64,000 nucleotides of DNA from Chromobacterium violaceum ATCC 12472 (GTDB lineage: Bacteria > Pseudomonadota > Gammaproteobacteria > Burkholderiales > Chromobacteriaceae). The stretch lies in contig NC_005085.1 in assembly GCF_000007705.1 (NCBI RefSeq), forward strand, positions 3,543,752 through 3,607,751, written 5' to 3'. The notes beneath the pieces were generated by a model. It was given only the letters and a program-made list of their open reading frames with translations. It searched no databases and was not told the DNA's origin. A program made the translations under genes and the position numbers. Positions 5,722 through 22,537 of the stretch are shown piece by piece (within the stretch, counting starts at the first letter, position 1; every line of letters starts with the position of its first letter).

Positions 5722-5877
5722 ATATCCGCATTAGCACTTAAGTATTCGTCACGAGGCGCATGGCCGCGCTTGGCGGCTATACCTGCAAGGCGGCAAGCCG
5801 CCGCGAAGGCGGATCTGCGCCCCAGCCTTATATCTGCCCGTCCTGCGGCAAGCGGCGCCAAACCAGGAGCAGCCGAA

Positions 5878-6768: not shown

Positions 6769-6799
6769 CCGCGCCCGGCCATCACGGGAGGACCCACTC

Positions 6800-7276
6800 A
6801 TGTCAACGGAACACCCTAGCGAGATGGTGGCCGCCACGCAGGAATCATTCCCGCTGGCATCCCGGGGCGTCACGGTCAGCCTGCCCGTAGCGGCGCCCAC
6901 CGGCCCGGCGCTGAAAGCCCAGGCCGGCGGCAAACCTCGCCAAGCCTATCTCCGGGTCGAACGGATCACCGGGAAAGGCATGCCGCCGGGCTACGAGATC
7001 TATCTGCATCCGCCGGGCGAAAACCAGCCCAGCCGCCGGGAAGAGCTGTGCGCCGGCGTGCTGCCGCTGTTCGGCTTGGACAAGGCGTCCCGGCAAGGCG
7101 CTGGGCATGCGGGCACCGGCCTGCATTACGTGTTCGACGTCACCGAGCTGATGGAAAGGCTGGAACGGGAACCCGGCTGGGATCCCCAGGACCTGCGCGT
7201 CACCTTCGTGCCCAGACGGCAGCCCAGGCAAGATGCCGAAGTCCGGGTGGGACGGGTCAGCCTGTATTACGCATAG
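6800..7276 (+). CDS. Stand-alone PPO1_KFDV-like (tyrosinase C-terminal) domain protein
   Basis: This 158-residue protein lies 31 bases after the tyrosinase. Its order of features (GYEIYLHPPGE, then CAGVLPLFGLD, then GLHYVFDVTELMERL, then DLRVTFVPRR, ending in VRVGRVSLYY) resembles the C-terminal PPO1_KFDV domain of plant polyphenol oxidases. In those fused enzymes this domain covers the active site. Here it would be a separate polypeptide acting in trans as a lid, chaperone or copper-delivery partner. No copper-binding cysteine or histidine cluster is evident. The family link is from motif order only and is moderate; the partnership with the tyrosinase is supported by gene context. Confidence 0.6.
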   Translation: MSTEHPSEMVAATQESFPLASRGVTVSLPVAAPTGPALKAQAGGKPRQAYLRVERITGKGMPPGYEIYLHPPGENQPSRREELCAGVLPLFGLDKASRQGAGHAGTGLHYVFDVTELMERLEREPGWDPQDLRVTFVPRRQPRQDAEVRVGRVSLYYA

Positions 7277-7291
7277 CCGCGGATCGAGACG

Positions 7292-8056
7292 ATGCGCCCG
7301 CCATCCATCCGCGGCTCCCGCCTCGCCGCGGCGCGAGCATGGCCGGCCGTTCTGGAACAAGCGTCGGGCTGGCTGCGGCGGCACCCCGAGTGGTGGATGC
7401 TGTCGCTGTGCGCCGCGGCATGGCTGTGGCTGCAGTTGAAGCCGGACGGCGCCGGACTCGCCTCCGTCTGCCGCGCGGCCTCCGGCAGGCCGGAACGGAT
7501 CGCGGTCGCCGCGCCGGACGGCGGCCTGCCGCTGATGACGGCGGCGATGATGCTGCCGCTGGCGGCGGGCTCCTCCCGGTACGCGGCCTTCCGCAGCCTG
7601 TGGCGTCGCCGGCATCGGGCGATCGCCGTCTTCCTGTGCGGCTATCTTGCCGTCTGGCTGGCCGCGGGCTGGCTGCTGGATGAGATGGCCGCGCCATGGC
7701 TTGCCGCCATCAACGACAAGCCGCTGGCCCTCGCCGGCATCGCGCTGGCCGCGGCCGCCTGGCAGCTCTGCCCGGCCAAGGCCGCCGCGCTGGCGGCCTG
7801 CCACCAGGGCCATTCGCTGGCGCCTTCAGGCTGGCCGGCCGACCGGGACTGCCTGCTGTATGGCTTTCGAAACGGCGCGGCCTGCGTCCGCAGCTGCTGG
7901 CTGCTGATGCTGCTGCCCGTCGCCGGCGGCCACGATCTGGCGATGATGCTGGCAGCCACTGCGCTGGCCGCAGCGGAGCGCTATCTCCGGCCCGCGGCCG
8001 GCCTCTCGGCGGCCGCGCTGCTCGGCCTGGCGCTGTGGCGCGCGCTGGCCTCTTAG
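7292..8056 (+). CDS. DUF2182-like integral membrane protein
   Basis: This 254-residue protein lies 15 bases after the KFDV-like gene. It has several hydrophobic segments (for example WWMLSLCAAAWLWLQL, MTAAMMLPLAAG, FLCGYLAVWLAAGWLL, LLMLLPVAGGHDLAMMLA). The motifs MTAAMMLP, FLCGYLAVW and NGAACVRSCWLLMLL, with a C-terminal ERYLRPA-like stretch, resemble the DUF2182 family (predicted metal-binding membrane proteins). These often accompany copper or other metalloprotein genes. A role in copper supply to the tyrosinase is inferred from the operon only. The gene ends convergently with the next minus-strand gene. Confidence 0.72.
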   Translation: MRPPSIRGSRLAAARAWPAVLEQASGWLRRHPEWWMLSLCAAAWLWLQLKPDGAGLASVCRAASGRPERIAVAAPDGGLPLMTAAMMLPLAAGSSRYAAFRSLWRRRHRAIAVFLCGYLAVWLAAGWLLDEMAAPWLAAINDKPLALAGIALAAAAWQLCPAKAAALAACHQGHSLAPSGWPADRDCLLYGFRNGAACVRSCWLLMLLPVAGGHDLAMMLAATALAAAERYLRPAAGLSAAALLGLALWRALAS

Positions 8057-8119
8057 CGCTTGTTTACGCTCTTTTTGCGAGCTGCAGGCCCGCTGACTGG
8101 ACGGCGCTTTCAGACCGTC

Positions 8120-9604
8120 TCAGCCGTCCTCGCCGTAAAAGCTGTCCAGCGAGCACATTCCCAGCGTTTCCTGCCCGCGGTAAAAATCCGCGACCTGATC
8201 CATCGCGCGGCGCTCCAACTCCATCATGTAGGCCAGGCTGCCCAGCGCGCGCCGCTGCGCGCTCGCGCCCAGCAGCGAAATCTCGCGGAAGAACAACTGC
8301 GGCAACGCCGCGCATCCGCCCTCCTGGCAGCCTTCGTCCCGGGGCGGAGAAGGCCGATAGACCGCGCGTTCCTCCGCCGCGCCATCCTGGCCCATATCCT
8401 CCAGTCCCTTCATGCCCAGTCCGCACTCGAAGGCCATCAGCGCGGCCAGATAGCCGATGGGATCATGCCGACCCAGCACGGTAAAGGCGTCGACATAGGC
8501 CTGGAACAACGGCAGCGGCAGCGCCTGGTCCAGCCAGGCCGACGGCACGCCCAGCGCTTCGCACACCGATCTCCCATACACCTCGCGCGCCAGCTCGTCC
8601 TGGAAATAACGATGGACATGCTGCTTCAAGGGCAGCCTCATCCTGCGGGTCATCAGGGGCGCGATGATCTCGGCGAAACGCCGGGAGACGTGGTACTGCT
8701 CGATGAACAAGCCCTGAACCAGCGCGCCGGCCTCCGCGCCGCCAGCCTGCGCCAGCTTGGAGAAGCGGTCTTCTCCCAGGGCCTCGAGACCGGATGCCAG
8801 GCATTGCCGCGCCCGGCGCATGAAATTGACGCCGCTGTCCGCCGCCGTCGGCGACGTCCAGCCCGGCAAACGCCGCCGCGCCGCCAAGCGCGGCGCCTGC
8901 AGCACCAGATCCACCAGGCACAACAGATACGACTCCTCCTGCACCGGGCAATAAAAACCCAGCACGTCCGGCCGCGCCACCCGGCCCGGTCCGCGCTCGC
9001 GGTCGACGCACCCGGACGCCTCGATGAAGCCCGTCAACACTCTCCGCCACAACGGAATCAGTTGCGGCAGATTGTCTTCCAGGTACAGTTTTTGCAGGTA
9101 GAACGTCTGCAGCGCGAAATTGTCGCTCCACTCCGGCGAAGCGACATCCTCGAGGAGAAACGCGCCTGGCGCGGGAGGCGGCTCGTCTAGCAGATGCAGC
9201 ATCACCCGCGCGATGGGAATGTGCAGCCCGCCGCCCTCCCGGGAGCCCGCCAGCAGACGCTCGACGCAGCGGCGGATCAGCGATTCCTGCTCCAGGCGGC
9301 GCATTTCCAGCACGGAGCGGCCTGGAGGCGCGTCCCTGATCAGCGACAGCGCATCCAGTTGCCGCGCCAGCGACAGCTGCCAGGGCTGGGCCGAACCGGA
9401 ATGGATGTCGAACCAGATTTCCGCGCCCGGGTTGGCCATCGCCAACACGCTGTCCAGCACCCGCCCTCCCTCGATTCCCGTGAAAGCGAGCTTGTATTCG
9501 TTGGCTTCGGCGGCCAGCACCACGGTCTGTCCATCATCGTCCAGCCTGGCGCTGAACGGCACCAACTGCGGCGCGTGGTATTGATTGATGCGTCTGACTT
9601 CCAT
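8120..9604 (-). CDS. Putative haem-oxygenase-fold diiron (HDO/TenA-like) protein
   Basis: This is a 494-residue cytosolic protein with a strong AGGAGG ribosome-binding site. I do not recognise a characterised homologue. The C-terminal half has helical motifs typical of TenA-like or haem-oxygenase-like diiron proteins: GLFIEQYHVSRRFAEIIAP, HVHRYFQDELAREVYGRSVC, LAALMAFECGLGMK and a final MELERRAMDQVADFY. These supply Glu and His residues spaced as possible metal ligands. The N-terminal 70 residues (VVLAAEANEYKLAFTG, then GGRVLDSVLAMA) weakly recall the peptide-recognition domains of RiPP pathways. It is transcribed divergently from the ferritin-like/LodA-like cluster across a 470-base promoter region. 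Function is unknown; an oxidative tailoring role is inference. Confidence 0.5.
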   Translation of the reverse strand: MEVRRINQYHAPQLVPFSARLDDDGQTVVLAAEANEYKLAFTGIEGGRVLDSVLAMANPGAEIWFDIHSGSAQPWQLSLARQLDALSLIRDAPPGRSVLEMRRLEQESLIRRCVERLLAGSREGGGLHIPIARVMLHLLDEPPPAPGAFLLEDVASPEWSDNFALQTFYLQKLYLEDNLPQLIPLWRRVLTGFIEASGCVDRERGPGRVARPDVLGFYCPVQEESYLLCLVDLVLQAPRLAARRRLPGWTSPTAADSGVNFMRRARQCLASGLEALGEDRFSKLAQAGGAEAGALVQGLFIEQYHVSRRFAEIIAPLMTRRMRLPLKQHVHRYFQDELAREVYGRSVCEALGVPSAWLDQALPLPLFQAYVDAFTVLGRHDPIGYLAALMAFECGLGMKGLEDMGQDGAAEERAVYRPSPPRDEGCQEGGCAALPQLFFREISLLGASAQRRALGSLAYMMELERRAMDQVADFYRGQETLGMCSLDSFYGEDG

Positions 9605-9888
9605 TTCGGCCTCCTGCCGCGGCTGGCGCGGGCGCGAACTTCCTGCGCGGAATCTCCGGGAGCGGCCCGCTCCGGCTCGGCCCGAAACGCCTGGGCCGCG
9701 GACTGGCGATCCGATCCTGGCGAACCCGCGGGCCGATAAGGCGGACTTTCATCTTATGCCGGAATCGTCCTGACCCGGCATGTTTGGAACTGACATAAAT
9801 ACCTGTTTTTGATCATTTTTTCAGAACAAGAAAACTTGCGCCGATGATGGCCGCCGGGCCGCGGAAACCGCTCCAGCCCGCGCCACGC

Positions 9889-9916
9889 TTGACATGGCTC
9901 CGCCCCCGGCTATAAC
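9889..9916 (+). promoter_or_regulatory. Sigma-70 promoter of the LodA-type cluster
   Basis: A perfect -35 hexamer TTGACA (9889-9894) is separated by 16 bases from TATAAC (9911-9916), one mismatch from the -10 consensus. Transcription would begin near 9923. It faces the four-gene cluster starting at 10075. Confidence 0.7.
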
Positions 9917-9934
9917 CAGCACATGTCGGATATT

Positions 9935-9951
9935 CCATACTGCAAGTATGG
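9935..9951. promoter_or_regulatory. Palindromic operator candidate CCATACT-GCA-AGTATGG
   Basis: Two perfect 7-base arms with a 3-base centre lie about 12 to 28 bases downstream of the predicted transcription start, a classic position for a repressor to block elongation or promoter clearance. The binding protein is unknown; no dedicated regulator gene lies in the cluster. Confidence 0.5.
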
Positions 9952-10074
9952 TTAAGCAATTCTACTTACCTGACATGATCCGCCGCCACAGGCGGACGAC
10001 AATATCGCGGTATCGGGTCGGCAGCACGCCAGGCAACACGCAGTCATCCTGACCATGTCTTGGAGAGCCAAACC

Positions 10075-10920
10075 ATGAACCTGAGCCAATTCCAACGCGC
10101 TTCGGCCCCGCTATCGCAAAGCCTTGACCATCTCGGCCCGCTGGCCGAGCTCTCCGGCCACTGGACCGGCCACGGCTACAATATGATCGCCGTGCCCGAC
10201 CATCAGAACGGGCAGATCTTCCGCCTGATCGTCAACGCCACCACCGAGACCATAGACTTCAACCCGATAGGCGGCCCGGTGCCCAACCGCGGCTCCAAGC
10301 AGAACGACATCTTTCTCTACGGCCTCACCTACCTGCAGCAGGTCAGCGACGCCGCCACCGGCGAAGGCATACACATCGAGCCCGGCATCTGGCTGAACGT
10401 GCCGGCCACCGCCGCGCCGCAGGACCCGCCCACCATCGTGCGCCAGGCCACCATCCCGCACGGCGACTCGCTGCTGGCCCAGGGTCAGGCGTCCGCCGAG
10501 GCGCGCGCGCCCAATATCGCGCCGGTCAGCACCATGCCCACCCGGGTCGACGGCAAACCGTTGCCCCTTGGTTATACCGATCCCTATCTGAACGGCAAGT
10601 TCCCGCCCGGATTCGACATGCAGAATCCCAACCAGGCCCTGGTGGACGTGCTGAAATATCAGCAACAGCAGCTGGAGCTCAAGGTGGTGAGCACCACCAA
10701 TCTGCCGGTCAGCACCCAGGATTCCGGCGGCATCGCCAACATCCCCTTCATCGTCCAGAACGCGGACGCCACCGAAATGAACGCCATCTTCTGGATCGAG
10801 ACGCTGCAGCGTCCGGACGGCAGCCAGTTCCTGCAGCTGCAATACACCCAGACCGTGCTGCTGGTGTTCGACGAAATCATCTGGCCGCACGTGTCGGTGG
10901 CCACGCTGATCAAGCGCTGA
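10075..10920 (+). CDS. Nitrobindin/THAP4-like beta-barrel (putative haem-binding) protein
   Basis: This 281-residue soluble protein is the first gene of the cluster. ATG 10075 is preferred over the upstream TTG because GGAGA precedes it. The start GPLAELSGHWTGHGYN resembles the opening of nitrobindin/THAP4-type lipocalin-like barrels (L-x-G-x-W-x-G-x-G), which bind ferric haem. The rest is rich in beta strands: FRLIVNATTETIDFN, LQLQYTQTVLLVF. No signal peptide is seen. The gene is followed after 43 bases by a ferritin-like gene and then the quinoprotein oxidase. A role in holding haem, or in protecting against peroxide formed by the oxidase, is inference; the fold call is moderate. Confidence 0.6.
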   Translation: MNLSQFQRASAPLSQSLDHLGPLAELSGHWTGHGYNMIAVPDHQNGQIFRLIVNATTETIDFNPIGGPVPNRGSKQNDIFLYGLTYLQQVSDAATGEGIHIEPGIWLNVPATAAPQDPPTIVRQATIPHGDSLLAQGQASAEARAPNIAPVSTMPTRVDGKPLPLGYTDPYLNGKFPPGFDMQNPNQALVDVLKYQQQQLELKVVSTTNLPVSTQDSGGIANIPFIVQNADATEMNAIFWIETLQRPDGSQFLQLQYTQTVLLVFDEIIWPHVSVATLIKR

Positions 10921-10963
10921 GCGCGCCTCGCCGTCTGCCTACCCGACGATACGCGGAGGAAAC

Positions 10964-12226
10964 ATGAGCATCGACTCGAGCAAACCCTTCGGCATGCTGT
11001 TCGACCGCATCTACGGCCAGCGCGCCGCCGAAGACCTGGCGGATGCCCGCAAGCCGCTGCAGGACGCGGCCCAGCTGGCCATCCAGGTGGAGATGACCAC
11101 CATCCCGCCCTATCTGACCGCGCTGTATTCGATCAGCGACCCCAACTGCGAGGCCTACCAGTTGCTGCGCAGCGTGATGATGGAAGAGATGTTCCACATC
11201 AACCAGGCCGCCAATCTGCTGGTGGCCATCGGCGGCCGGCCCCGGCTGACCGGCAGCGCCGCGCCGGTCTATCCCTGTTACCTGCCCCACGCCAACACCA
11301 GCACCACGCCCTTCATCGGCCTGTGCCGGGCGTCGGTGGAAGTGTTCAACGACACCTTCACCGCGATCGAGACTCCGGCGCCGCCGCACGCGCCGCCGCG
11401 CGGCGACAACTACAGCTACATCGCGCAGCTGTACGACGCGCTGCTGGACGGCCTGGCGGCCTACCCGGACCAGGCGGCGCTGTTCCAGCCGAACCCCGAC
11501 GCCTGTCAGCGGCTGGACATCTACCTGGGCAAATTCGGCGGCAAGCCGGTGCGGGTCACCGACCTGGCCAGCGCCCGGCTGGGCGTCCAGCAGATCGTGC
11601 AGCAGGGCGAAGGCAGCGTGCCGGAGTCGCAGTCGATGATTCCGATCGAGCCGTGGGCCACCTACAACACCTACGGCGAGCGGACCGACGGCACCTACGG
11701 CCCCATCATCGGCTCGCCGTACGAGATGTCGCACTTCAAGAAATTCCGCACCGTGTCGCTGGACAAGGCGGCCTTCCCGCCCACCTACCCCATCGTGTCC
11801 AACCCCAAGCGCAGCGATTTCACCAATCCGCTGGCCATCCAGCTGGCCGAGCTGTTCGATATCGCCTACAGCCTGATGCTGGACTCGATGGAGCGCAGCT
11901 TCGTCGCCGGCCAGGCCAGAGACAGCTTCTTCACCCAGGGCCTGCCGCTGATGCACCAGGCGCTGCCCAACCTGGCCCGCAAACTGATGCAGACGCCGCT
12001 GCACAAGGACACCAACGGCGACGTCGGCCCCAACGGCGCGCCCACCTACCTGTACCAGCCCGGCAGCAGGCTGGCCGATCTGGCAGCGCGGCTGCCCGCC
12101 GCCGTCCAGGTGGCCAGGCAGCAGATAGACGACCCGGCGGAACGCGGCGAGATGGTGGACGCGCTGGAGAGCGTGCGCGACAACGTCGGCCGCCTGGCGG
12201 CCGCCCATCAGACCGCACAAGCATGA
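10964..12226 (+). CDS. VioB-type ferritin-like protein (iminophenyl-pyruvate dimer synthase-like)
   Basis: This 420-residue protein resembles the ferritin-like part of VioB (family PF12902). Two helical iron-ligand motifs are visible: AIQVEMTTIPPYLTALYSI near residues 38-56 and RSVMMEEMFHINQAANLL near residues 70-90. The E...EExxH pattern matches LRKAVDLELSVMLQYLYAAY and LEIAHEEMIHYLVVNNLLMA in the VioB encoded at 18210-21206. It lacks the roughly 600-residue N-terminal part of VioB. VioB couples two imine forms of indole-3-pyruvate, so this protein may couple or oxidise an imine made by the next gene's oxidase. It is cotranscribed with, and 13 bases from, the LodA-like gene. Confidence 0.75.
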   Translation: MSIDSSKPFGMLFDRIYGQRAAEDLADARKPLQDAAQLAIQVEMTTIPPYLTALYSISDPNCEAYQLLRSVMMEEMFHINQAANLLVAIGGRPRLTGSAAPVYPCYLPHANTSTTPFIGLCRASVEVFNDTFTAIETPAPPHAPPRGDNYSYIAQLYDALLDGLAAYPDQAALFQPNPDACQRLDIYLGKFGGKPVRVTDLASARLGVQQIVQQGEGSVPESQSMIPIEPWATYNTYGERTDGTYGPIIGSPYEMSHFKKFRTVSLDKAAFPPTYPIVSNPKRSDFTNPLAIQLAELFDIAYSLMLDSMERSFVAGQARDSFFTQGLPLMHQALPNLARKLMQTPLHKDTNGDVGPNGAPTYLYQPGSRLADLAARLPAAVQVARQQIDDPAERGEMVDALESVRDNVGRLAAAHQTAQA

Positions 12227-12239
12227 ATCGGGAGCCATC

Positions 12240-14060
12240 ATGATCGAATACCGGATCTACCCCGCCATCGGCATCGCCCGCGTCGGCAACGCGCCGGAGA
12301 AGTTCTACATCGAGCCGGACCGCTACTGCGGCCTGCCCATCATGCCGGACGGCAAACCGTTCACCCAGCAGGACTTCCGCGACGCCGAAGGCCGGCTGTG
12401 CCGGCAAGCCGCGCGCTTCAAGGTGTACAAGGTGGAAAACGGCGTCAGCGAGGAGGTGACGCTGAACACCGACGGCGTCCACGCGATACGCTGGACCGCG
12501 CACCTGGCCAACAAGAAGCCCAGCTGGTACACCTTCGTGCCGGCAGAGGGAGAAGGCGGCTACGCGCCCAACCACCCGCTGCGCAATCCGCAGGCCGAGG
12601 ATCGCCACGCGCTGCTGATCGACGCCGGGCCGCGCCAGATATCCGGCCGCAGCCAGCAGGGACAGCAGTTCAGCCGCGGCACCGTGCCGCCGGGCTACGA
12701 GGGCGCCCACTTCCCGCCCAGTCCGCTCTATCCGATGAACGACTCCATCGACACCCTGGGCGAGCTGCGCACCGACCAGGACGGCCGGCTGCTGGTGCTG
12801 GGGGGCTACGGCATATCCGGCTCCGCCGATCCGGACGCGACCATCACCGACTACGCCAACAACGACGGCTGGTGGGACGACACCTCCGACGGACCGGTCA
12901 GCGCGGTGATCGAGTTCTCCGACGGCAGCCGGATCGAGGCGCTGCCGGCCCACGTGCTGGTGGCGCCGCCCAAGTACGCGCCGGAAGTGCCCAACCTGAT
13001 CACCCTGTACGACACCATCTTCGACGCGCTGGTGCGCAGCGGCCACTACCCGGCCATTTACGAAAACGGCTTCTGGAAGTCCGGCAAGGATGGTTTCCAG
13101 CCCAATTTCCACACCGAAATCCGCCCGCTGCTGGAGCGCGCGACCTATATGCCCTGGGTGGCCGCCATCCCCCCCAAGCCGCACCACTTCGACTTCGGCA
13201 AGCTGGGCGCCACCGGGCCCGACGGTCTGGGCGCGCCGGAGCTCCAGGGCTTCCGCCAGTACATCCTGGATTTCATCCGCCCGCCCTACCAGGAGAACGA
13301 CATCCTCACCGCCAGCGGCGCGACGATGATGCCGTACCTGGCCGGCGACAATTGCCTGGTGCTCAGCACCGCCACCAGCAAGTACATGCGCCTCACCGAC
13401 ACCCAGTACTTCATGCTGCAGCAGTGGGTGGCCGGCTGCTTCGTCAACCGGCCGGAGGACGGCGACGCGGCCGAGAACCTGACCCGGGCGGCGCTGGACA
13501 ACTGCGTCGGCGGACCGTTCTCGCCCGGCATCGAGATGACCTGGATCTCGCGCAATCCGGCCATCTACGGCCAGCCCTTCCGCATCCGCAACCACTTCGT
13601 GCCCGAAGGCCCGCTGAGCCTGGATTTCGATCTGAAGCGCGGCATGGAGCCCGGCGACGTCACCCGCTACATGGCCATCCCCTGGCAAGCCGACTTCAAC
13701 GAGTGCTCGTCGCAGCCGCTGGACGGCAGGCGGCTATGGTGGTGGCCGGCGCAACGGCCGGAATTCGTCTACCTGGAGCCGCAACCGCAGCCGCGGACGC
13801 TGGCGGCCTCGCCCCCGCCGCCGCCCGACCAGGAAACCGGCAAGCAGGTGCCGTGGCTGGGCACCGACTACGACCAGTTGGCCGGCGACTTCATCCAGTT
13901 CGCCGACGACATCGACATGGTCAAGTACTGGGCCGGCCTGGGTTTCGTGATGGAAAAGCAGGTGGAGGGCGAACGCCGCTTCGTCGAGGTGGCGCGCGAA
14001 CTGCCCCGGCCCTTCGATCCCGCCCATCCGCCGCGGCCGGAACCGCGCAATGAGCGTTAG
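12240..14060 (+). CDS. LodA/GoxA-like cysteine tryptophylquinone amino-acid oxidase
   Basis: This 606-residue protein resembles the LodA family of quinoprotein oxidases, which oxidise amino acids (lysine epsilon-amine, glycine) and release peroxide. Visible family blocks are IYPAIGIARVGNAPEKFYIEP at the N-terminus, DDGPVSA-like strands, LQQWVAGCF, ALDNCVGGPFSPGIEMTW, IPWQADFNECS and WWWPAQRPEF. C422 (in LDNCVGG) and W482 (in PWQADF) are the candidate pair for the cross-linked cofactor. Their 60-residue spacing is close to that recalled for GoxA and LodA. The protein has no signal peptide. It overlaps by 11 bases the flavoprotein gene that follows, the partner usually needed for cofactor formation. 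Substrate is unknown. Confidence 0.82.
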   Translation: MIEYRIYPAIGIARVGNAPEKFYIEPDRYCGLPIMPDGKPFTQQDFRDAEGRLCRQAARFKVYKVENGVSEEVTLNTDGVHAIRWTAHLANKKPSWYTFVPAEGEGGYAPNHPLRNPQAEDRHALLIDAGPRQISGRSQQGQQFSRGTVPPGYEGAHFPPSPLYPMNDSIDTLGELRTDQDGRLLVLGGYGISGSADPDATITDYANNDGWWDDTSDGPVSAVIEFSDGSRIEALPAHVLVAPPKYAPEVPNLITLYDTIFDALVRSGHYPAIYENGFWKSGKDGFQPNFHTEIRPLLERATYMPWVAAIPPKPHHFDFGKLGATGPDGLGAPELQGFRQYILDFIRPPYQENDILTASGATMMPYLAGDNCLVLSTATSKYMRLTDTQYFMLQQWVAGCFVNRPEDGDAAENLTRAALDNCVGGPFSPGIEMTWISRNPAIYGQPFRIRNHFVPEGPLSLDFDLKRGMEPGDVTRYMAIPWQADFNECSSQPLDGRRLWWWPAQRPEFVYLEPQPQPRTLAASPPPPPDQETGKQVPWLGTDYDQLAGDFIQFADDIDMVKYWAGLGFVMEKQVEGERRFVEVARELPRPFDPAHPPRPEPRNER

Positions 14061-15147
14061 CCGCTACCCGGTGGCGATAGCCGGCGCCGGCCCGGCCGGC
14101 AGCGCCCTCGCGCTGGCGCTGCAGGCGCAGGGCGTGGAGGCGCTGCTGCTGGACCGCCCGCTGGCCCAGCCTTTCCGCATCGGCGAATCGGCGACGCCGG
14201 ATGTCGCCGGCCTGCTCGAGCGCCTGGGCGCCGGCCATGCGCTGGACGGCCAGCCGGGCTACCACGGCAACCTCTCGCTGTGGGGGAGCGAGTCGCCGCG
14301 GCTGGACCACTTCCTGTACCGCGGCCGCGGCCACGGCTGGCATCTGGATCGCGCCGGCTTCGACCATGCGTTGCGGCAGGAGGCGATGGCGCGCGGCGTG
14401 GCCGTGTTGGGCGAATCCGGCGTCGATGCCATCGCGCCGGCCGCTGGCGGCTGGCGGCTGCGAGTGCGCGGCCTCGGCGAAGTGGAGGCGCGGGTGGTGG
14501 TGGATGCCGGCGGCAGGCGCTCGCCGCTGGCCGCCAGGCTGGGCATTTCCCGATGCAGGCTGGACCGGCTGCAGGCGCTGGCGTGCCGCGTCGACGGCCC
14601 CGGACAACTGAGCGGCTACTCGCTGGTGGAGTCCGCGCCCTACGGCTGGTGGTATGCCGCGGCGCTGCCGGACGGCCGCGCGCTGGCCACGCTGATGACG
14701 GACCAGGACCTGGCCCGGGAACTGGGGCTGGAACATCCCGCCAATTTCCTGGCTGCCTGGCGCGCCACCCGGCTGCTGTCGGAGAGGCTGCCGCCGCCGC
14801 AGCGGATCGACGCCGCGCACGCCTTCGCCGCGCACAGCGGCTGCGTCGCCCGCGCCGCCGGCCCCGGCTGGATCTGCGTCGGCGACGCGCTGATGGGCCT
14901 GGACCCGCTGACCTCGTCCGGCATCGCCTGCGCGCTCGGCGACGCGCTGGCCGCCGCGCCGGCCATCGTCGCGATGCTGGACGGCGAGCTGGCGCCGGCT
15001 CGCGCCTACGCCAAGCGCGCCGACGACTGCTTCCGCCGCTATCTGGCGGAGCGGCGGCGGCATTACCGGCAGGAAAACCGCTGGCCGGAGCAGCCGTTCT
15101 GGCAGCGCCGCGCCTTCTCGCCCGCGGCGCTGGCCGTTCCCGCCTGA
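14050..15147 (+). CDS. LodB-like FAD-dependent cofactor-maturation protein
   Basis: This 365-residue flavoprotein of the tryptophan-halogenase/geranylgeranyl-reductase type has an N-terminal dinucleotide motif (VAIAGAGPAGSALALALQA), a DAGGRRSPLAARLG block and the second FAD motif ICVGDALMGLDPLTSSGIA. LodB and GoxB proteins of this kind are required to build the tryptophylquinone of their partner oxidases, probably by hydroxylating the tryptophan. The 11-base overlap with the oxidase gene implies coupled translation. It is the last gene of the cluster and is followed by a terminator 22 bases later, facing vioE. Confidence 0.8.
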   Translation: MSVSRYPVAIAGAGPAGSALALALQAQGVEALLLDRPLAQPFRIGESATPDVAGLLERLGAGHALDGQPGYHGNLSLWGSESPRLDHFLYRGRGHGWHLDRAGFDHALRQEAMARGVAVLGESGVDAIAPAAGGWRLRVRGLGEVEARVVVDAGGRRSPLAARLGISRCRLDRLQALACRVDGPGQLSGYSLVESAPYGWWYAAALPDGRALATLMTDQDLARELGLEHPANFLAAWRATRLLSERLPPPQRIDAAHAFAAHSGCVARAAGPGWICVGDALMGLDPLTSSGIACALGDALAAAPAIVAMLDGELAPARAYAKRADDCFRRYLAERRRHYRQENRWPEQPFWQRRAFSPAALAVPA

Positions 15148-15168: not shown

Positions 15169-15196
15169 GGGGCTGCCCGAAAGCAGCCCCGTTTTT
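15169..15196 (+). terminator. Rho-independent terminator after the LodB-like gene
   Basis: GGGGCTGC pairs with GCAGCCCC around a CCGAAA loop and is followed by GTTTTT. It ends the plus-strand cluster. The same stem may slow minus-strand transcripts leaving vioE, though the T-run on that strand is poor. Confidence 0.8.
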
Positions 15197-15212: not shown

Positions 15213-15788
15213 CTAGCGCTTGGCGGCGAAGACGGCGTCGGGAATCTCGGCCTCGCTGACGTTGGGGAAATCGCGCAGCGACGCGCGCGACGCCTCGTCC
15301 CCGGTCACCATCCTCAGCGGCGTACCGCTGGCGGCGTCCAGGTACAACGTGGACGGCCCCTTGCCCGGACGCTGGTAGCGCCAGCCGTCGGCTTCCCTGC
15401 CCAGCACCACGCGGCGGCCGATATGGCGGGCGCCCAGCCGGCGCAGCACGTCGCGCGGCAGGAACAGCTCGGCGAACGGGCCGGTCTCGTCGTCCAGCGG
15501 CCGCTCGCACAGCTGCTCGCCCAGGGCGGTCCGCTCGCGGCCATAGGCCACCTTCTGCTTCCAGGTGCGGCCGCTGGCGGCGTTGCCGACCTCGGACATC
15601 CACAGCCGGTAGCCGGTGTCGCGCTCCGACCAGGGATTGAACAGGCCGTCTATCCGACAGATGTCGCGCTCGTAGTCGAACCAGCAGTAGCCGGACGTCA
15701 GCTGGTCATCCGGCAGCATCGGACTCCAGTACGACACATAGGCGCTGCTCCAGCGCGCCGGCAGCAGCGGCGGTTCCCGGTTTTCCAT
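15213..15788 (-). CDS. vioE: Violacein biosynthesis protein VioE
   Basis: This is the 191-residue VioE, start MENREPPLLPARWSSAYVS. VioE has no cofactor and channels the unstable product of VioA/VioB into protodeoxyviolaceinic acid through an intramolecular 1,2-indole shift; without it chromopyrrolic acid forms spontaneously. Length and start match the known protein, and it is the last gene of the operon, 9 bases after vioD. It ends 17 bases from the convergent terminator of the LodA-type cluster. Confidence 0.96.
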   Translation of the reverse strand: MENREPPLLPARWSSAYVSYWSPMLPDDQLTSGYCWFDYERDICRIDGLFNPWSERDTGYRLWMSEVGNAASGRTWKQKVAYGRERTALGEQLCERPLDDETGPFAELFLPRDVLRRLGARHIGRRVVLGREADGWRYQRPGKGPSTLYLDAASGTPLRMVTGDEASRASLRDFPNVSEAEIPDAVFAAKR

Positions 15789-15797
15789 GCGGCCTCC

Positions 15798-16919
15798 TCA
15801 GCGTTGCAGCGCGTAGCGCAGGTTCTGCGCCAGCGCTTCCGGCATCGGCGGCAGCGACTTGCGGCGCGCGTCGAAGCTCTGCACGAACTCGGCGCTGGAC
15901 AGGTGCATGCGCTCCTCCACCGTCTCGAACCAGACCCGGCTGTTGTCGGCATGGCCGCGGAACAGCTGGACCAGCGGCAGCGCGCGCTCCTCGAAGCGCT
16001 TCAGCGCGGCCGGCACGCCGTCCTCGGTGCACAGCGCCTTCACCAGCAGCTGCGCCACCACCACCGCCATCGTGGTGCCGTGGCCGATGGAGAAGTGGCC
16101 GGACTGCAGCGCGTCGCCCAGCAGCACCAGCTTGCCGTCGTGGCAGCGGTCGTGGCTCAGGGTCATGAAGTTGCGCCAGCCGAGGCCGGGCTGGCTCACC
16201 AGGCCGTGGCCGCCCAGCTCGGCCTGGAACACCTTGGCGACGTATTCGGCCGACGCCTCTTCCGACATCTCGCCCAGGCGGGCGCGGGCATAGGTCTCCT
16301 CGCTGCACTCGACGATGAAGGTGCTCATCGTGTCCGAGTACTTGTAGGCGTGGGCGATGAAAATGTCCTTGCCGTGGGTGCGGAACACCAGGTTCATCTG
16401 GTCGAACAGCTGGCTGGTGCCGTACCAGATGTACTTGTTGCGGCCGTAGTCCACCTGCGGCACCAGCGCCTCGGTGAAGTGGGCGGTCTTGTGATTGACG
16501 CCGTTGGCCAGCACCACCAGGTCGTAGTCGGCCAGCGGCAGCTCGCCATGCTCCAGCAGCGGCGATTCGAAGCGGATGGCGATGCCCTGCGAGCGGCACT
16601 TGTCGCGCAAGGCGTGCACCAGGCCGCGGCGCTCCACGCCGCACAGCAGCACGCCGGTGCTCATCAGGCTGGGCTCGTTGTGGTGGACCAGCTTGAAGTC
16701 TTCCAGGAACTGCGGATTCAGCCTCTCCGGCGCGTCCAGGTAGGACAGCGGATTGGCCGGATGCTGGCCGGGCCGGCCGGGCAGCACCACGCCCCAGCCC
16801 AGCACTTCCTGCTCGTCGTTCTTTTCGACGATGTCTATCGCCCACAGCGGACGCGCCTGTTTCAGTTGGCTGGCGAACACCAGGCCGGCCGGCCCCGCGC
16901 CGATGACCAGAATCTTCAT
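15798..16919 (-). CDS. vioD: FAD-dependent tryptophan-hydroxylating oxygenase VioD
   Basis: VioD (373 residues) is a flavin monooxygenase that hydroxylates C5 of one indole of protodeoxyviolaceinic acid to give protoviolaceinic acid. The FAD motif MKILVIGAGPAGLVFASQL begins at once, and LVLLGDALQSGHFSIGHG is the second flavin motif. The true start is MKILV at 16919 rather than the longer frame. Its ATG overlaps the TGA of vioC (TGATG), so translation is coupled. Confidence 0.96.
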   Translation of the reverse strand: MKILVIGAGPAGLVFASQLKQARPLWAIDIVEKNDEQEVLGWGVVLPGRPGQHPANPLSYLDAPERLNPQFLEDFKLVHHNEPSLMSTGVLLCGVERRGLVHALRDKCRSQGIAIRFESPLLEHGELPLADYDLVVLANGVNHKTAHFTEALVPQVDYGRNKYIWYGTSQLFDQMNLVFRTHGKDIFIAHAYKYSDTMSTFIVECSEETYARARLGEMSEEASAEYVAKVFQAELGGHGLVSQPGLGWRNFMTLSHDRCHDGKLVLLGDALQSGHFSIGHGTTMAVVVAQLLVKALCTEDGVPAALKRFEERALPLVQLFRGHADNSRVWFETVEERMHLSSAEFVQSFDARRKSLPPMPEALAQNLRYALQR

Positions 16920-18208
16920 CAGTTGACCCTCCCTATCTTGTACCAAACGTTCTGTTTTCTCTGGATCTGCTGCAGTCTGTCGTACGGCTCGGACGTGAAG
17001 TACAGCTTCTCCGCCATGTCCGGCGGGTAAAGGCCGGGAAACTTGCTATGCATGTAGCGGGTGTAGCGGGCCCGCATGAAGAAGATGGGATTGGAGCAGC
17101 TGAGCACGTCGTAGTTGGCGCGCGCCATGTCCTGCATCGCGTCGGCCTGCACCTTGCGCAGCTCGGTGAACTCGGGAAAGGCCTTGTCCTGGTCGCCCTG
17201 GTGGCGGTCCAGCAGCTCGACGAAGGTGCGCGCGTCCTCCAGCGCCATGTTCATGCCCTGGCCGAGGAAAGGCGCGGTGGCGTGGGCGGCGTCGCCCAGC
17301 AGCAGCACATTGCCCTTGTAGTGGAAGGTGCTGGAACGGACGTTGATCAGGTCGTTGCTGGGCTTGGCCAGGAACTGGCGCAGCATCTCGTCGCGCGCGT
17401 CCCGCGGCAGGCCGCCGAAGTAACGGTCGAAAAAGGCGCGCATCGTCGGCTCGTCGGTGGTGGTCAGGCTGGGGCTGCCGCTGTACGGCAGGCAGACCGC
17501 GATGCTGACGCTGCCGTCCGGGATGGTGGCGGCGCGGCCGGCGAACAGGCCGCCGGAGTCCATGCCGAAGAAATACAGCGTGTCCTTGCGGTAGCCCAGC
17601 GCCTGCGCGTCCGGCAGCACCAGCGTCTTGTAGCCGTGGCGGAAGAAAGTCTGCTGGAATTCGAAGCGGCGCAACCCGCTCTGCATCGCCTGCCGCACCG
17701 CCGAGTGCGCGCCGTCGGCGCCGATGATCATATCGCCCTGCAAGCGCTGCGGCTGGCCGTCCTTGCCCTGGATCAGCACCGACTTGCCGTCCAGATCCAC
17801 GTCCAGGCACTTGTGCTCGAAGTAGTAGCGGACGCCGGCCAGGTTGGCGTACTTGTTCAGCAGCTTCTGAAACGCCGCGCGGTTCAGCGACAGCGGGCGG
17901 AAATCCTCCAGCGGCTTGAGCTCCCGCATCCGGTACTGGCCGCCGACGGAAAACGCCATCGCCACGATGGGTTCGCCGCAGGCGTCCAGCTCCGCGCGCG
18001 GAATGCCGGCCGCCAGCACCGACTTGATGCCGCGCACGGTCATGCTGACGCCTATCGCCCGCGAGCTGACCACATCCACGTAGGAAGACAGGTCCCGCAG
18101 CGGGTCGCCGCGCTTTTCCACCACGTGGACCTCGTAGCCGCGCTTCGCCAGGTAGATGGCGGTCAGCCCGCCGGCGAGCCCGCCTCCGACTATGATTGCT
18201 CTTTTCAT
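16919..18208 (-). CDS. vioC: FAD-dependent monooxygenase VioC (violacein synthase)
   Basis: VioC (429 residues) hydroxylates the second indole at C2 to build the oxindole of violacein, or of deoxyviolacein if VioD is bypassed. The N-terminal motif MKRAIIVGGGLAGGLTAIYL and the C-terminal VLLLGDAAHATAPFLGQGMN are typical of kynurenine-3-monooxygenase-like flavin enzymes. The start at 18208 is one base after the vioB stop. The sequence appears the same as the C. violaceum type-strain protein as I remember it. Confidence 0.96.
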   Translation of the reverse strand: MKRAIIVGGGLAGGLTAIYLAKRGYEVHVVEKRGDPLRDLSSYVDVVSSRAIGVSMTVRGIKSVLAAGIPRAELDACGEPIVAMAFSVGGQYRMRELKPLEDFRPLSLNRAAFQKLLNKYANLAGVRYYFEHKCLDVDLDGKSVLIQGKDGQPQRLQGDMIIGADGAHSAVRQAMQSGLRRFEFQQTFFRHGYKTLVLPDAQALGYRKDTLYFFGMDSGGLFAGRAATIPDGSVSIAVCLPYSGSPSLTTTDEPTMRAFFDRYFGGLPRDARDEMLRQFLAKPSNDLINVRSSTFHYKGNVLLLGDAAHATAPFLGQGMNMALEDARTFVELLDRHQGDQDKAFPEFTELRKVQADAMQDMARANYDVLSCSNPIFFMRARYTRYMHSKFPGLYPPDMAEKLYFTSEPYDRLQQIQRKQNVWYKIGRVN

Positions 18209-18209
18209 T

Positions 18210-21206
18210 TCAGGCCTCTCTAGAAAGCTTTCCACAAGCCAAATCCAGCATCTGCCGGCGGTAGAAATCCAGCAGTTCCATTTGCGCGTCGGGCAGCCAG
18301 CCCGGCTCCAGCATCGACGCCTGCTCCAGCAGGCGCTCGCAGCGCCGCGCCAGCATCCGGCAGCCCAGCGCGTAGTCGTCGTAGCTGCGGGTATCCACCG
18401 GCCCCGGCAGCGGCGGCCCGGCGGTGCGTCCGGCGATGCCCGACGGCAGGTTCATCAGCGCGCAGGACAGCGGCCTGAGCAGGCCGGTCATCAGGTCGAT
18501 CGCCGCGTTCATCAGCCGCGAGCGCCTGAGGCTGCCCAGCGGCTTGACCGCGAAGTGCTGCGCCATCATCGCGAACATCAGCTCGTACACGCCCTGGTAC
18601 AGCGCCATCAGCGCGCGCGCCCGTCCGTCCGCCACGCGCTGGCAGCCCGGCGACTCGTCCAGCACCGGGTTGCGCAGCGCCGGCAACGCCGGCTCGAACG
18701 GCGCGGACTGCGCCATGATCCTGGCCGACATCTCCCGCAGCCGCTGGAAATGCGAATGCTCGTAATGCGGCGAGTCCAGCGCCCCGCCCTCGCCCTGGTC
18801 GGTGACGAAGGCGATGCCGAACAGCGCGCTGTCGCGATCGAACACCTCCAGCTGGTAGCCGGGATGGGCGCGGTTGGTCAGCTCGTTGAGGAACAAGTGG
18901 TGCTCGCCGCCGCGCTTGCCGGCCTCGCCGCCGAACAGGTCGGGCAGATCGAGAAAGGCCTGGCGGATGGCGGCGTAGCAGTCGGCGATGGATTTGCCCG
19001 GCGCAGGGATGAAGTGCGGCCATTCCAGCCGGACGAAGCGCGCCAGCGTCGACTCGGAGAACGGCTCCAGCGCGAATTCGGTGTCCAGGCCGAACGCCTG
19101 CCGCGCCGCCTCGCCCATCAGCGGCACGCCGGCGTAGAACGGCTCGCCCAGCGCCATCAGCAGGTTGTTGACCACCAGGTAATGGATCATCTCCTCGTGG
19201 GCGATCTCCAGCAGCGCGGCGCGGATGCCGCCGTCGCGGCGCCGGTCGCCGCTGCCGCAGGCCAGCTGCAGCTGCTCCGCCGTCCACGCGCCGTCGCGCA
19301 CCCGCTGCTGGCCCTGGGCGTAATTGGGAATGGAATAGGCGGCGTACAGGTACTGCAGCATCACCGACAACTCCAGATCCACCGCCTTGCGCAGCTCGGC
19401 CGCCAGCTGGGCCTTGCTCTCGATGCGCGCCGGCCCGGCCGGCGGCGGCGCCTGCAGCCTGGCCTGGCCCTCGACATGGGCCAGGTATTTGAGGAACAGC
19501 CTGGCCTTGGGCGCCGACAGCTCGCGGGTGCTGGGCATGTAGTAGCTCTTGTTCCGGTTCTGCGGATCGCACATCTGCCACATCAGCCTGGCGTAGGTCT
19601 CGCACTTGCAGCGGTCGGCCAGGCTGAACACCTTGTCGGACATGAACGGGTAGACCAGCTCGTAATAGGCCATCACGTGCCGGTACAGGAAGGCGTAATC
19701 GACCTCCTCCACCGTCGCGTCGTCCAACGCCCAGTCGTCCGGCAGCACCCGCAGCGGGATCGCCTCCGCGCCGTCGTCGAGCACGATGCGCGCCGGGCCG
19801 GGCCGCAGGCCGGTCAGCCGCCATTCGGCGGCATCGCCGTCCTGGCGCGACTCCACGCCGACCAGACCCATCCCCTCGATCCGGTGGGGAATGTCCGGGC
19901 GCGCGCGGGCCTCGCCGCGGAAATAGCTGCGCAGCGCGATGCTTTCCGGAAAGAAACGGCCGTGGCGGCGGTCCGGCGCTTCCAAATAAAGATTGGAGGC
20001 GTCGGACTGCGTGACCCAGTCCTGCTCGCGCCATTCGGCCAGCTCGCTGGACAGCGTCAGCGAGCCCCTGGGCTCGCGCAGCAGCGGCAGGTCGACGATG
20101 CCGTGGTTCGTCCAGTAATCCTGGTAAAGCGCCTGCGGCACCCGCGCCAGCAACGCGCCGTCCTCGTCGCGCAGCAGCAGGTCGCCCAACGGCAGCTTGG
20201 CCCCGAGATCGGGCGTCAGCCTGTCCGGCGCGGACGGCTGCGCCGCCCGGGTGGAGAACGGAATGGCGCAGGCCAGATTCAGCGCCACGCGGCCGCCGCT
20301 TACGCGCAGCGTCAGATCGCCCAGCCCGGGCTGGCGCGGACGCAGCAGCCGGCCGGCCGGGTAGCTGGCCAGTTCGCCGCGCCGCCACAGGCCGACCACG
20401 CCGACCATGTCGTGGAACACCGGCGAGTTGGGTTGCGGCGGCGTCGACATATTGAACAGCGCGTACTGCACCGTCAGGCCGAGCACGTCGTCGTCCTCCA
20501 GCGCCAGCTGCAGCCTGCGCCAGGCTTCGGAATCGAATGGCCCCGGGTGGAACAGGAAGTGCGGATGGTCTTTGGGCACCGAGAACTGGAACAGCCGCGC
20601 CAGGCCGAACTCCTCGTCCAGGAAATGGCCGCCGCGCTCGGCGATGTGGCCGCCGCGCGTCCAGCGCGCGCCGTGGCTGTCGTCGATGTCGGCGGTGAAC
20701 AGCCAGGGCGTGCCCGGTCCGGCGCCGGCCGGGCTGATCGTGAACTGCCCGGCGTAGATCTGCGCCGCGTCGCGGCGGGTGGGGTCGCTGTCCACCCAGC
20801 GCGCGCGGTTGAAGGTGGTGCGCAGGTAATCGTTGTAATGCCCCCACAGCGCCAGCCTGGCGCCGACCAGGCCGTCGCCGCGGTCCGCTTCGCCGCCATC
20901 CCACTGCACGTGGCTGACGGTGGCGCTCTCCCAGGAGAAATGGTTGTTGCCGGCCGCGTTGTAGCCCTCGGCCAGGCTGAACGGCCCTTCCGGGTCAGCC
21001 CGGCCGTCCAGGCCGAAACGCGGCCCCAGCGACCGCAGGTGGCGGTGGAACTCGGTCGGATGGCGCGCGAGGTCGAACGGTTCGCCTGCCATGGCCACCG
21101 TATTGCTGGCCATGTCGATGTGGCCGTGCGGATCGCGGTTGGCGGTGGGCGCGTTGACCCGCGCCCAGCCGCGGAAATGGATGCGTGGAAAATCCAGAAT
21201 GCTCAT
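18210..21206 (-). CDS. vioB: Iminophenyl-pyruvate dimer synthase VioB
   Basis: VioB (998 residues, start MSILDFPRIHFRGWARVN) couples two molecules of indole-3-pyruvate imine made by VioA into the imine dimer that VioE rearranges. The C-terminal third contains a ferritin-like fold: LRKAVDLELSVMLQYLYAAY followed by LLEIAHEEMIHYLVVNNLL (about residue 670), which supplies the E...ExxH metal ligands. The N-terminal 600 residues have no motif I can name. A shorter relative of the ferritin-like part is encoded at 10964-12226. The gene starts 74 bases after vioA and is followed by vioC after one base. Confidence 0.97.
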   Translation of the reverse strand: MSILDFPRIHFRGWARVNAPTANRDPHGHIDMASNTVAMAGEPFDLARHPTEFHRHLRSLGPRFGLDGRADPEGPFSLAEGYNAAGNNHFSWESATVSHVQWDGGEADRGDGLVGARLALWGHYNDYLRTTFNRARWVDSDPTRRDAAQIYAGQFTISPAGAGPGTPWLFTADIDDSHGARWTRGGHIAERGGHFLDEEFGLARLFQFSVPKDHPHFLFHPGPFDSEAWRRLQLALEDDDVLGLTVQYALFNMSTPPQPNSPVFHDMVGVVGLWRRGELASYPAGRLLRPRQPGLGDLTLRVSGGRVALNLACAIPFSTRAAQPSAPDRLTPDLGAKLPLGDLLLRDEDGALLARVPQALYQDYWTNHGIVDLPLLREPRGSLTLSSELAEWREQDWVTQSDASNLYLEAPDRRHGRFFPESIALRSYFRGEARARPDIPHRIEGMGLVGVESRQDGDAAEWRLTGLRPGPARIVLDDGAEAIPLRVLPDDWALDDATVEEVDYAFLYRHVMAYYELVYPFMSDKVFSLADRCKCETYARLMWQMCDPQNRNKSYYMPSTRELSAPKARLFLKYLAHVEGQARLQAPPPAGPARIESKAQLAAELRKAVDLELSVMLQYLYAAYSIPNYAQGQQRVRDGAWTAEQLQLACGSGDRRRDGGIRAALLEIAHEEMIHYLVVNNLLMALGEPFYAGVPLMGEAARQAFGLDTEFALEPFSESTLARFVRLEWPHFIPAPGKSIADCYAAIRQAFLDLPDLFGGEAGKRGGEHHLFLNELTNRAHPGYQLEVFDRDSALFGIAFVTDQGEGGALDSPHYEHSHFQRLREMSARIMAQSAPFEPALPALRNPVLDESPGCQRVADGRARALMALYQGVYELMFAMMAQHFAVKPLGSLRRSRLMNAAIDLMTGLLRPLSCALMNLPSGIAGRTAGPPLPGPVDTRSYDDYALGCRMLARRCERLLEQASMLEPGWLPDAQMELLDFYRRQMLDLACGKLSREA

Positions 21207-21280
21207 GTGTTTCCCGAACGGTCATGGCTGACAAGCGCCGCCCGGAACCGGGCGGCGACGCGATGCGGCGGCCGGACCGT

Positions 21281-22537
21281 TCACGCGGCGATGCGCTGCA
21301 GCAGCAGACGGCTGGCTTCGCGGGCGCTGAGCAGGCCGCCCTCCATCCAGCCGCAGTGCTCGGTGTAGGCGTCCGAACAGGCGATGATGCCGCTGTCGCG
21401 GTGGCTGAGCGCGGACGGATGGTCGATATCGCTGTCGCGGCAGAACTCCACGCCATGCGCCCAATACTTGTGCACATGGGCGAGGGGCTGGGGAATGCGC
21501 TCGCGAACGATGCCCAGCGCGCTGGCCAGATGGGTGCGGATCTGCTCCAGGTAGCCGTCCTCTCCTTCGGCCACGCAGCCGCGCCAGTAATTGGCCATCT
21601 CGCTGTCGGTGTAGAAGAACAGGTACTTGTCGCCCTTGAAGTAGATCTTGCGCAGCGGGTTGTCGACGATCAGCACCTGGTCGTCCAGCTTGTAGTCCAG
21701 CCACCATGGCTCGCCGTAGGTGAGGAAACCCTTGAACAGCGGCAGCGAGCCGTAGCGCGCGCCGCTCCACGCCTCGGGGAAGTCGACATTGAGCCCGGCC
21801 ATCGCCGACGGAGGAATGGCCAGGATCAGATGGCGGGTCCGGTGTTCCAGCTTCCAGCCGTCGTCGCCGGCCAGTTGCAGCAGGTAGCCGTCGCCGTCCG
21901 TCCTCACCGACAGCAGCCGGTAACCCAGGCTGAAGCGCGCGCCGGCAGCCTTGACCTTGGCCTTGATGCCCTGGATCAGGCCCGCAAAGCCCGTTTCCGC
22001 CGCGAACCACTGGTTGGCGTCGTTATCGGTCACGCTCTGGATTTCCGGGTGCTTGCCGACGATGTCGTAGGCCATCTCGGCCGAGATGTCGGGCAGGAAC
22101 AGCGCGTCGTAGCCCATGGAGCGGATCATGCCCACCGCGCTGTCATGGCCCTGGTAGCGGCTGACGAACTGGAGAAAGGATTCCTTGCCATGCTCTTTCA
22201 GCCTGGGCGACAACTCGTTCATCGCCCGCTTCAGCTTCTGCTGGACATGGCTCTTGAATTTCAGCTGGGTGAACGGATACACCTCGCTCTTCTGGCTGTA
22301 ATGCTGCATCGCGCTCTGGAAATGCGGGTGCAGCTGCGGGGAGTATCGCCCCGCGCCCAGCTCTATCGACGCCTTGCCATCCAGCATCTTCGAGCGGATG
22401 CGGCCGCCCGCCTCCTGCTGCATGTCGAAGATGCGCAGCGACAGGCCGCGGCAAGCGGGCGAGTCGAGCAGATGGCTGGCGCAGGTCAGGCCGCTGATGC
22501 CGGCGCCGACAATGCAGATATCGGAAGAATGCTTCAT
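21281..22537 (-). CDS. vioA: L-tryptophan oxidase VioA
   Basis: VioA (418 residues) is a flavin amine oxidase that converts L-tryptophan to indole-3-pyruvate imine and peroxide, the first violacein step. The FAD motif [17 protein letters not shown] and [22 protein letters not shown] are typical of the amine-oxidase family; the C-terminus has [10 protein letters not shown] and [16 protein letters not shown]. It is the first gene of the operon, with a 5' region of about 250 bases between the CviR box and the ATG. The ribosome-binding site AAGGA (9 bases upstream) directly abuts a 12-base palindrome. Confidence 0.97.

Follow-up and report, generated by a model that had tools for sequence, protein, structure and literature searches.

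A ferritin-like protein inherited together with the LodA-family quinone oxidase of Chromobacterium violaceum

In Chromobacterium violaceum ATCC 12472, four adjacent open reading frames (ORFs) on the plus strand, separated by 43, 13 and -11 nucleotides, lie beside the violacein (vio) operon within the stretch of 64,000 nucleotides analysed here (the window; positions 3543752-3607751 of the single-contig genome of 4,751,080 bases). In order, they encode a heme-binding protein (HB), a ferritin-like protein of family PF12902 (FER), a LodA-family cysteine-tryptophylquinone (CTQ) oxidase and a LodB-type flavoprotein (table 1), and they converge on vioE (15213-15788, minus strand; VioE model, 4.5e-102); their locus tags presumably fall within CV_3265-CV_3269. 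Judged by gene order and gene content across genomes, FER, lodA and lodB are a self-contained, conserved three-gene unit, to which HB is an accessory in Chromobacterium. An earlier reading of the bare DNA (the original prediction) had already described four adjacent plus-strand genes converging on vioE, in agreement with the ORF coordinates and the VioE match, and had proposed a second oxidase-plus-coupler pair next to that of violacein synthesis. The LodA-type quinone oxidase, the flavoprotein and a homologue of the ferritin-like domain of VioB are indeed there; the coupler function was not upheld.

Table 1. Features of the cluster and its surroundings (positions in the window)
Feature	Positions	Strand	Basis
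Promoter-like TTGACA-N16-TATAAC upstream of HB	9889..9916	+	conserved in alignment
Conserved element ATTCCAT-N9-ATGG-N-TAAG, just past the -10; candidate operator or leader element	9932..9956	+	alignment
HB, heme-binding protein, 281 aa	10075..10920	+	NCBIfam NF040572 heme_bind_FMP
FER, PF12902 ferritin-like protein, 420 aa	10964..12226	+	Pfam, alignment, hhalign
FER signature Y-x2-YG-x-R-x-DG-x-YGPI-x-G-x-P, residues 234-252	11663..11719	+	in LodA-adjacent FER proteins only, among the sequences compared
LodA-family CTQ oxidase, 606 aa	12240..14060	+	Pfam, NCBIfam, alignment, tree
Codons C489 (13704-13706) to W502 (13743-13745), predicted CTQ pair	13704..13745	+	alignment; LodA C516/W581
LodB/GoxB/QhpG-type flavoprotein, predicted CTQ maturase, 365 aa	14050..15147	+	NCBIfam
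Perfect hairpin GGGGCTGC-CCGAAA-GCAGCCCC then T run, between lodB and vioE; terminator-like	15169..15190	.	missed by automatic scan
vioE-D-C-B-A operon, neighbour, outside the unit	15213..22537	-	family models, cross-genome comparison

The gene products and the cofactor of the oxidase

The first gene, originally described as encoding a beta-barrel, is real, and its identity can be completed: HB is a member of the NCBIfam family heme_bind_FMP (NF040572; 304 bits, cut-off 150), scoring 14.7 bits only, below the cut-off, with the Pfam THAP4 heme-binding barrel and 70.3 bits with the FMP-type peroxidase model NF040571 (cut-off 300). No paper using the term 'FMP-type' was found in the open-licence PubMed Central literature. 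FER matches PF12902 with 3.1e-36 and 125.7 bits (cut-off 22.3), over positions 2-217 of the 221 in the profile, and has in common with VioB the motif E43...E74-E75-M-F-H78, which bears out the ferritin-like gene with VioB-type E...EExxH noticed in the DNA. The LodA-like and LodB-like identities also hold, the oxidase matching LodA_N (3.5e-69, 233.5 bits; cut-off 26.3) and LodA_C (2.8e-40, 137.9 bits; cut-off 25) and the flavoprotein the LodB, GoxB and QhpG models with 200-208 bits, under each of their equivalog cut-offs (400, 400 and 240). As the oxidase itself stays below the cut-offs of both equivalog models, i.e. LodA lysine 6-oxidase (NF038172; 369.1 bits, cut-off 600) and GoxA glycine oxidase (NF038173; 244.5 bits, cut-off 750), neither name can be assigned to it. 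None of the four cluster proteins has a match in the defence-system library.

In LodA, the cofactor residues are C516 and W581 (PMC4417212). The corresponding columns were taken from a phmmer alignment to the LodA chain 3weu and from a MAFFT alignment of 36 LodA-family ORFs: C516 aligns with C489 of the oxidase, and the Trp before Pro in the WWP of LodA (W581) with W502, which are thus the predicted CTQ residues. Cys and Trp occupy these columns in all the 35 rows that cover them; the remaining row, with a gap there, is a piece of the broken L065 gene (G219:C1:2335000-2351000), a lodA gene apparently split into two frames. The Cys/Trp pair that was expected on alignment with LodA is therefore present, but it is not C422/W482, as originally named: that pair is excluded because the alignment places it at C489/W502, while the C422 column lacks Cys in 10 of the 35 rows. 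At the position of LodA C448 a Ser is found in this oxidase and in nine other FER-adjacent rows, and LodA Y211 is kept; both positions are important in LodA.

A LodA-like protein of C. violaceum, placed in group IC, has been described as being involved in H2O2 generation in biofilms (PMC4417212; the biofilm/H2O2 role appears also in PMC3948610 and PMC4699246). Lysine oxidase activity was undetected in cultures of the organism (PMC4417212), and for its LodA-like protein NP_902938 neither glycine nor lysine oxidase was detected in preliminary studies (PMC3948610). As LodA matches only one gene of the own genome, NP_902938, or the group IC protein, is very probably the oxidase of the window. Its primary paper is reportedly Mai-Prochnow 2008. 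The peroxide part of the antibacterial peroxide source proposed in the original prediction therefore stands, but was already published for C. violaceum (PMC4417212, PMC3948610). The passages on this protein in these papers do not mention a ferritin-like neighbour gene, and a figure legend in PMC3566124 presents CV3266-CV3269 as hypothetical proteins beside the vio operon. No report of a bacterial FER-lodA pairing was found in the open-licence literature, subscription papers lying outside that scope.

Conservation and inheritance of the three-gene unit

Searches for close relatives of FER gave five loci in the genome contigs; matches in the own genome, G399 and G404 in the phylum sample, with 47-100% identity; matches in eight of the 19 genomes of the genus Chromobacterium (E <= 1e-60); and matches in two Azospirillum plasmid records (57-58% identity), the next plasmid row dropping to 30% among the best 30 of 163 matching records. 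A search across more of the class of G399 returned only G399 itself. After merging repeats, 13 places remain, which belong to five lineages: the eight Chromobacterium genomes, Paraburkholderia bannensis, G399, G404 and the two Azospirillum plasmids. Each of these has FER, lodA and lodB in this order on one strand (in L003 lodB reaches the contig end), so that the gene order is conserved elsewhere, a point on which the original prediction could be checked. HB lies upstream in all eight Chromobacterium loci and is divergent beside FER in G399. When the ORFs of at least 120 aa were compared among seven stretches (the window, two from Chromobacterium, and those of P. bannensis, G399, G404 and Azospirillum), the matches between lineages were confined to FER, LodA and LodB, plus HB for G399 and overlapping frames on these genes. 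No tailoring enzymes, VioE/C/D-like genes, reductase or ferredoxin were common across the lineages in this comparison, and the lack of shared tailoring enzymes favours FER acting directly with the oxidase.

A search for LodA_N covered 399 genomes of the order and, in a set overlapping with these, 398 of the phylum; 15 and 12 genomes, respectively, had a match, which gave 27 distinct LodA genes. With the flanks of every one of them read, FER adjoins three (own genome, G399 and G404) and none of the other 24; FER is therefore a trait of one LodA clade. The 10 FER-adjacent rows are a single clade in a LodA tree of 34 rows (100/99; midpoint root), the 10 LodA-adjacent rows are a single clade in an FER-type tree of 26 rows (99/98; midpoint root), and the branching of the two clades matches. 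Across eight loci, the pairwise identities of FER and LodA are correlated with r=0.988 (0/2000 permutations as high), those of LodB and LodA with r=0.957; because host relatedness contributes to the former figure, it is read as joint inheritance, not as contact between the proteins. The FER signature of table 1 occurs, among 140 sequences (some places being represented repeatedly), only at the 13 unit places. A LodA motif tried alongside it was not private, G214 matching too.

Surroundings of the cluster and the relation to violacein synthesis

VioA, VioB and VioE of the window pass their own family models, and a functional link between the cluster and their operon was considered. It is dismissed by the genus survey and by the existence of empty sites. 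In the 19 Chromobacterium genomes FER is found in eight and VioB in nine, with both in six, FER only in two, VioB only in three (G778 and G779 among those with VioB and no FER) and neither in eight. The cluster adjoins vio in four of the eight FER genomes (own, G780, G770 and G771) and does not in three, the G772 stretch ending at a contig end. No VioB match is present in G765 and G773, and in G777 VioB lies 1.7 Mb from the cluster. In G765 (L004, C. alticapitis) the match to window 10127-15112 is followed by 111 bases and then by a match from window 22875, and in G773 (L005, C. sinusclupearum) by 48 bases and a match from window 22850, i.e. the 7.7 kb with the vio operon are missing between the cluster and the gene beyond vioA, which encodes an Exo_endo_phos protein; G777 has the same order of cluster and beyond-vioA gene, with 1.76 kb between. 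In the stretches read from Paraburkholderia, the Azospirillum plasmid and other loci, vio is absent near the cluster. The empty sites fit either arrival or loss of vio. In G766 (VioB 98% identical), short stretches beside vioE (L131:15540-15997) still match lodB, the beginning of FER and the end of HB, lodA and most else being missing, a sign that the cluster has decayed in that genome. Overall, the position beside vio looks like a local accident of the lineage.

By hhalign, FER 29-352 aligns with VioB 596-925 at a probability of 97.6%, or 99.3% with more PF12902 rows, and blastp gives E 5.8e-7 at 24% identity; the ferritin-like homology to VioB, offered originally as a check, is thus seen by Pfam and hhalign alike. 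E43, E75, H78, E136, Y157, E216 and H257 recur in 24 to 26 of the 26 aligned PF12902 proteins and are identical letters in VioB. The shared region corresponds to the C-terminal ~330 residues of VioB only; FER has no counterpart of the N-terminal ~560 residues and scores 14 bits with the VioB equivalog TIGR04492 (cut-off 1250), as compared with 1922.5 for the true VioB of the window. Since the N-terminal half is missing and the VioB model fails, FER is, as far as alignments and models go, a homologue of one domain of VioB and not a VioB. For these reasons, and because PF12902 is a wide family whose members adjoin other oxidases too, the functional label of a VioB-like coupler does not hold, FER as a coupler being possible at best on such homology. 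A split VioB, with HB as the N-terminal and FER as the C-terminal half, was also considered and is unsupported (hhalign 0.5%, no blastp match under E 0.9), in a comparison whose VioB alignment of four close rows gives weak power for a distant link. A sequence search of the Protein Data Bank (PDB) with FER returned one relative, the Caulobacter protein 3hl1 (1.2e-9), which also ranked first (6.7e-6) in a Foldseek search with a low-confidence FER model that had VioB rows in its alignment; the same sequence search with VioB found no relative, only chance-like matches. According to PMC13274686, VioB itself contains heme iron and has peroxidase activity, and its pathway benefits from catalase addition.

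Upstream of the cluster, a block TTGAC[A/T]-N16-TATAAC is conserved in the alignment of all eight Chromobacterium sequences with the cluster, which supports the one promoter originally proposed, though the automatic sigma-70 scan, which requires T at the end of the second hexamer, listed none. The block is followed in all eight by ATTCCA(T)...ATGG-N-TAAG, an element that in the window contains the perfect palindrome CCATACT-GCA-AGTATGG (9935-9951); in the own genome the 25-base element has one exact match, at its own site, and two others with 2 mismatches. In G399 (L132) both block and downstream element are absent from the same alignment. The one terminator-like site listed by the automatic scan is unrelated to the cluster. 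Farther upstream, window 5760-9739 (~4 kb) holds long overlapping ORFs on both strands, with no Pfam or NCBIfam match for the ORFs tried.

Possible roles of the ferritin-like protein

A metal or heme partner on the same side is a recurring feature of LodA proteins. In 28 LodA fusion proteins, the N-terminal partner is of catalase fold in 21 and a pfam14518 iron-redox domain in five (PMC4417212), and of the 10 upstream ORFs scanned for the 24 LodA genes without FER, five encode a tyrosinase immediately ahead of lodA. These tyrosinase loci (L060, L061, L064, L067 and L074) are one clade and match the tyrosinase-bearing group ID of PMC4417212. The two longest LodA N-terminal extensions scanned (L058 and L070) contain no second Pfam family. 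PF12902 proteins, in turn, recur beside oxidases: a flavin oxidase adjoins four of the 11 non-LodA PF12902 loci scanned (a glucose-methanol-choline (GMC) oxidoreductase in three, an amine oxidase in one), and at least six plasmid rows among the best 30 of 163 carry a GMC label, which in H40 applies to an 80-residue piece only. It is from these two recurrences that FER is read as a redox partner of the oxidase.

At L083:4223-6935 a PF12902 protein is paired, in the manner of VioA/VioB, with a neighbour of the FAD amine-oxidase family, and at L086:3871-7040 another stands beside an MbnB/TglH/ChrH-family enzyme of ribosomally synthesized and post-translationally modified peptides (RiPPs). Outside the window, the own genome encodes two more PF12902-like proteins (L084:6788-9355 and L085:5990-7099), of which one precedes a 3-dehydroquinate-synthase-like gene, as in the eboE-bearing Mycetohabitans cluster (L091), and is probably ebo-type, and the other has no EExxH motif. 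At L125:8757-9791, G495 encodes another strong heme_bind_FMP member, the third (288.6 bits), and the 19 kb read there contain neither FER nor LodA.

The explanation that we consider best, with belief and doubt evenly balanced, is that FER is the dedicated partner of the oxidase and spends its peroxide or its imine. The flavoprotein would build the quinone cofactor on C489/W502, by analogy with LodA/LodB; the oxidase would convert an amine or an amino acid other than lysine or glycine to an imine or carbonyl compound, ammonia and H2O2; FER would spend the H2O2 in a peroxidase- or catalase-like manner, either advancing the oxidized product by one step or restraining the peroxide; and HB would contribute peroxide chemistry at a heme or the supply of heme. 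The net output would be a controlled extracellular or biofilm source of H2O2, with or without an oxidized small molecule. Iron in FER, the direction of its step, the role of HB and the class of the substrate are the conjectural parts of this scheme, and several observations weigh against it. The seven residues shared with VioB may be a carboxylate/histidine iron site, but the ligands are taken from conservation, and FER gave poor AlphaFold models (mean pLDDT 49 and 55). PF12902 is broad, and the scanned neighbour ORFs included no oxidase at seven of the 11 non-LodA loci. P. bannensis (genome G781), G404 and both Azospirillum plasmids have no HB, which is therefore not essential. Efficient removal of peroxide by FER would put the H2O2 release of C. 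violaceum below the reported level, and a step ahead of the oxidase, such as a tyrosinase might take, would suit FER equally well.

The known systems closest to the unit differ in instructive ways. LodA/LodB, the L-lysine epsilon-oxidase of Marinomonas mediterranea, and AlpP have the same LodA_N and LodA_C regions, Cys/Trp of CTQ, lodB-like gene directly downstream and H2O2/biofilm role; here, by contrast, the LodA equivalog score is 369/600 bits, C448 is Ser, FER (with HB) is upstream, and lysine oxidase activity is, as said, undetected in cultures (PMC4417212). Fungal (Agaricomycete) group V loci also combine lodA-like, lodB-like and PF12902 ferritin-like genes (PMC4417212, Fig. 1C), but, compared by that published description, with lodB in opposite orientation and another LodA group. 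VioA/VioB, RebO/RebD and StaO/StaD likewise pair an amino-acid oxidase with a protein having a ferritin-like domain; VioA is, however, a flavin oxidase, and VioB carries an additional N-terminal half and is known to couple imines, a function not expected of FER from its model score. In the LodA fusions and the group ID tyrosinase loci a metal or heme redox partner is again N-terminal to or upstream of LodA, but belongs to other families, the PF12902 partner here being a separate gene.

Other explanations share parts of this evidence. The oxidase might serve as a plain peroxide weapon or means of dispersal, its H2O2 causing biofilm cell death or acting in competition, with FER (and HB) merely protecting the producer by degrading or sequestering peroxide and iron. 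The published H2O2/biofilm role (PMC4417212, PMC3948610, PMC4699246), the catalase-fold fusions of other LodA proteins (PMC4417212) and the lack of tailoring genes all agree with this; the 24 of 27 sampled LodA genes that do without FER next door and a private FER motif stricter than generic protection needs argue against it, and it is held to be unlikely. Should FER instead act before the oxidase, as an iron oxygenase turning an amino acid or amine into the true substrate, its place directly upstream of lodA (13/13), the tyrosinase in the same place at five loci of another clade and the undetected lysine and glycine oxidase activities (PMC3948610, PMC4417212), which would be expected if the pathway makes its own substrate, would all be accounted for, but a reductase or ferredoxin gene common to the unit across lineages was not found, which leaves this order of events improbable.

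The coupling of two oxidase-made imines to an amino-acid dimer, as by VioB after VioA, is the role for FER in the original prediction and must be rated of low probability: the hhalign match and the seven identical residues speak for it, whereas FER lacks the ~560 N-terminal residues of VioB, which HB does not supply in trans, falls far short of the VioB equivalog and is accompanied across lineages by no VioE/C/D-like genes. Tight co-inheritance and co-divergence with LodA could also be expected of an extra maturation factor or chaperone for the quinone cofactor of this clade, but the descriptions of LodA and GoxA name only one flavoprotein as maturation partner (PMC4417212) and LodB is present at all 13 places, so that such a role appears very improbable. 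A wider version of the partner hypothesis is tentative and rather doubtful: PF12902 proteins would be general oxidase partners, and FER-LodA a self-feeding, peroxide-driven pair in which the iron site of FER uses H2O2 for a new oxidation or coupling. VioA/VioB, flavin-oxidase/PF12902 and LodA/FER would then be one design, and the slot upstream of lodA one in which metal redox enzymes (ferritin-like, tyrosinase, catalase-fold, pfam14518) are swapped.

In the LodA-like oxidases, a reservoir of quinone enzymes, lysine and glycine oxidases are the activities characterized in the literature cited; tests for these two yielded no substrate for the C. violaceum enzyme. The unit described here is a real, conserved and little-noticed variant of this known oxidase family, the oxidase and its peroxide having been known already. 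With FER as the inherited partner and vio as an incidental neighbour, expression and deletion of FER jointly with the oxidase promise more than a search for a link to violacein. Should FER indeed use the peroxide of the oxidase, then at 420 aa and with a single domain it would be a compact model of VioB and RebD chemistry.

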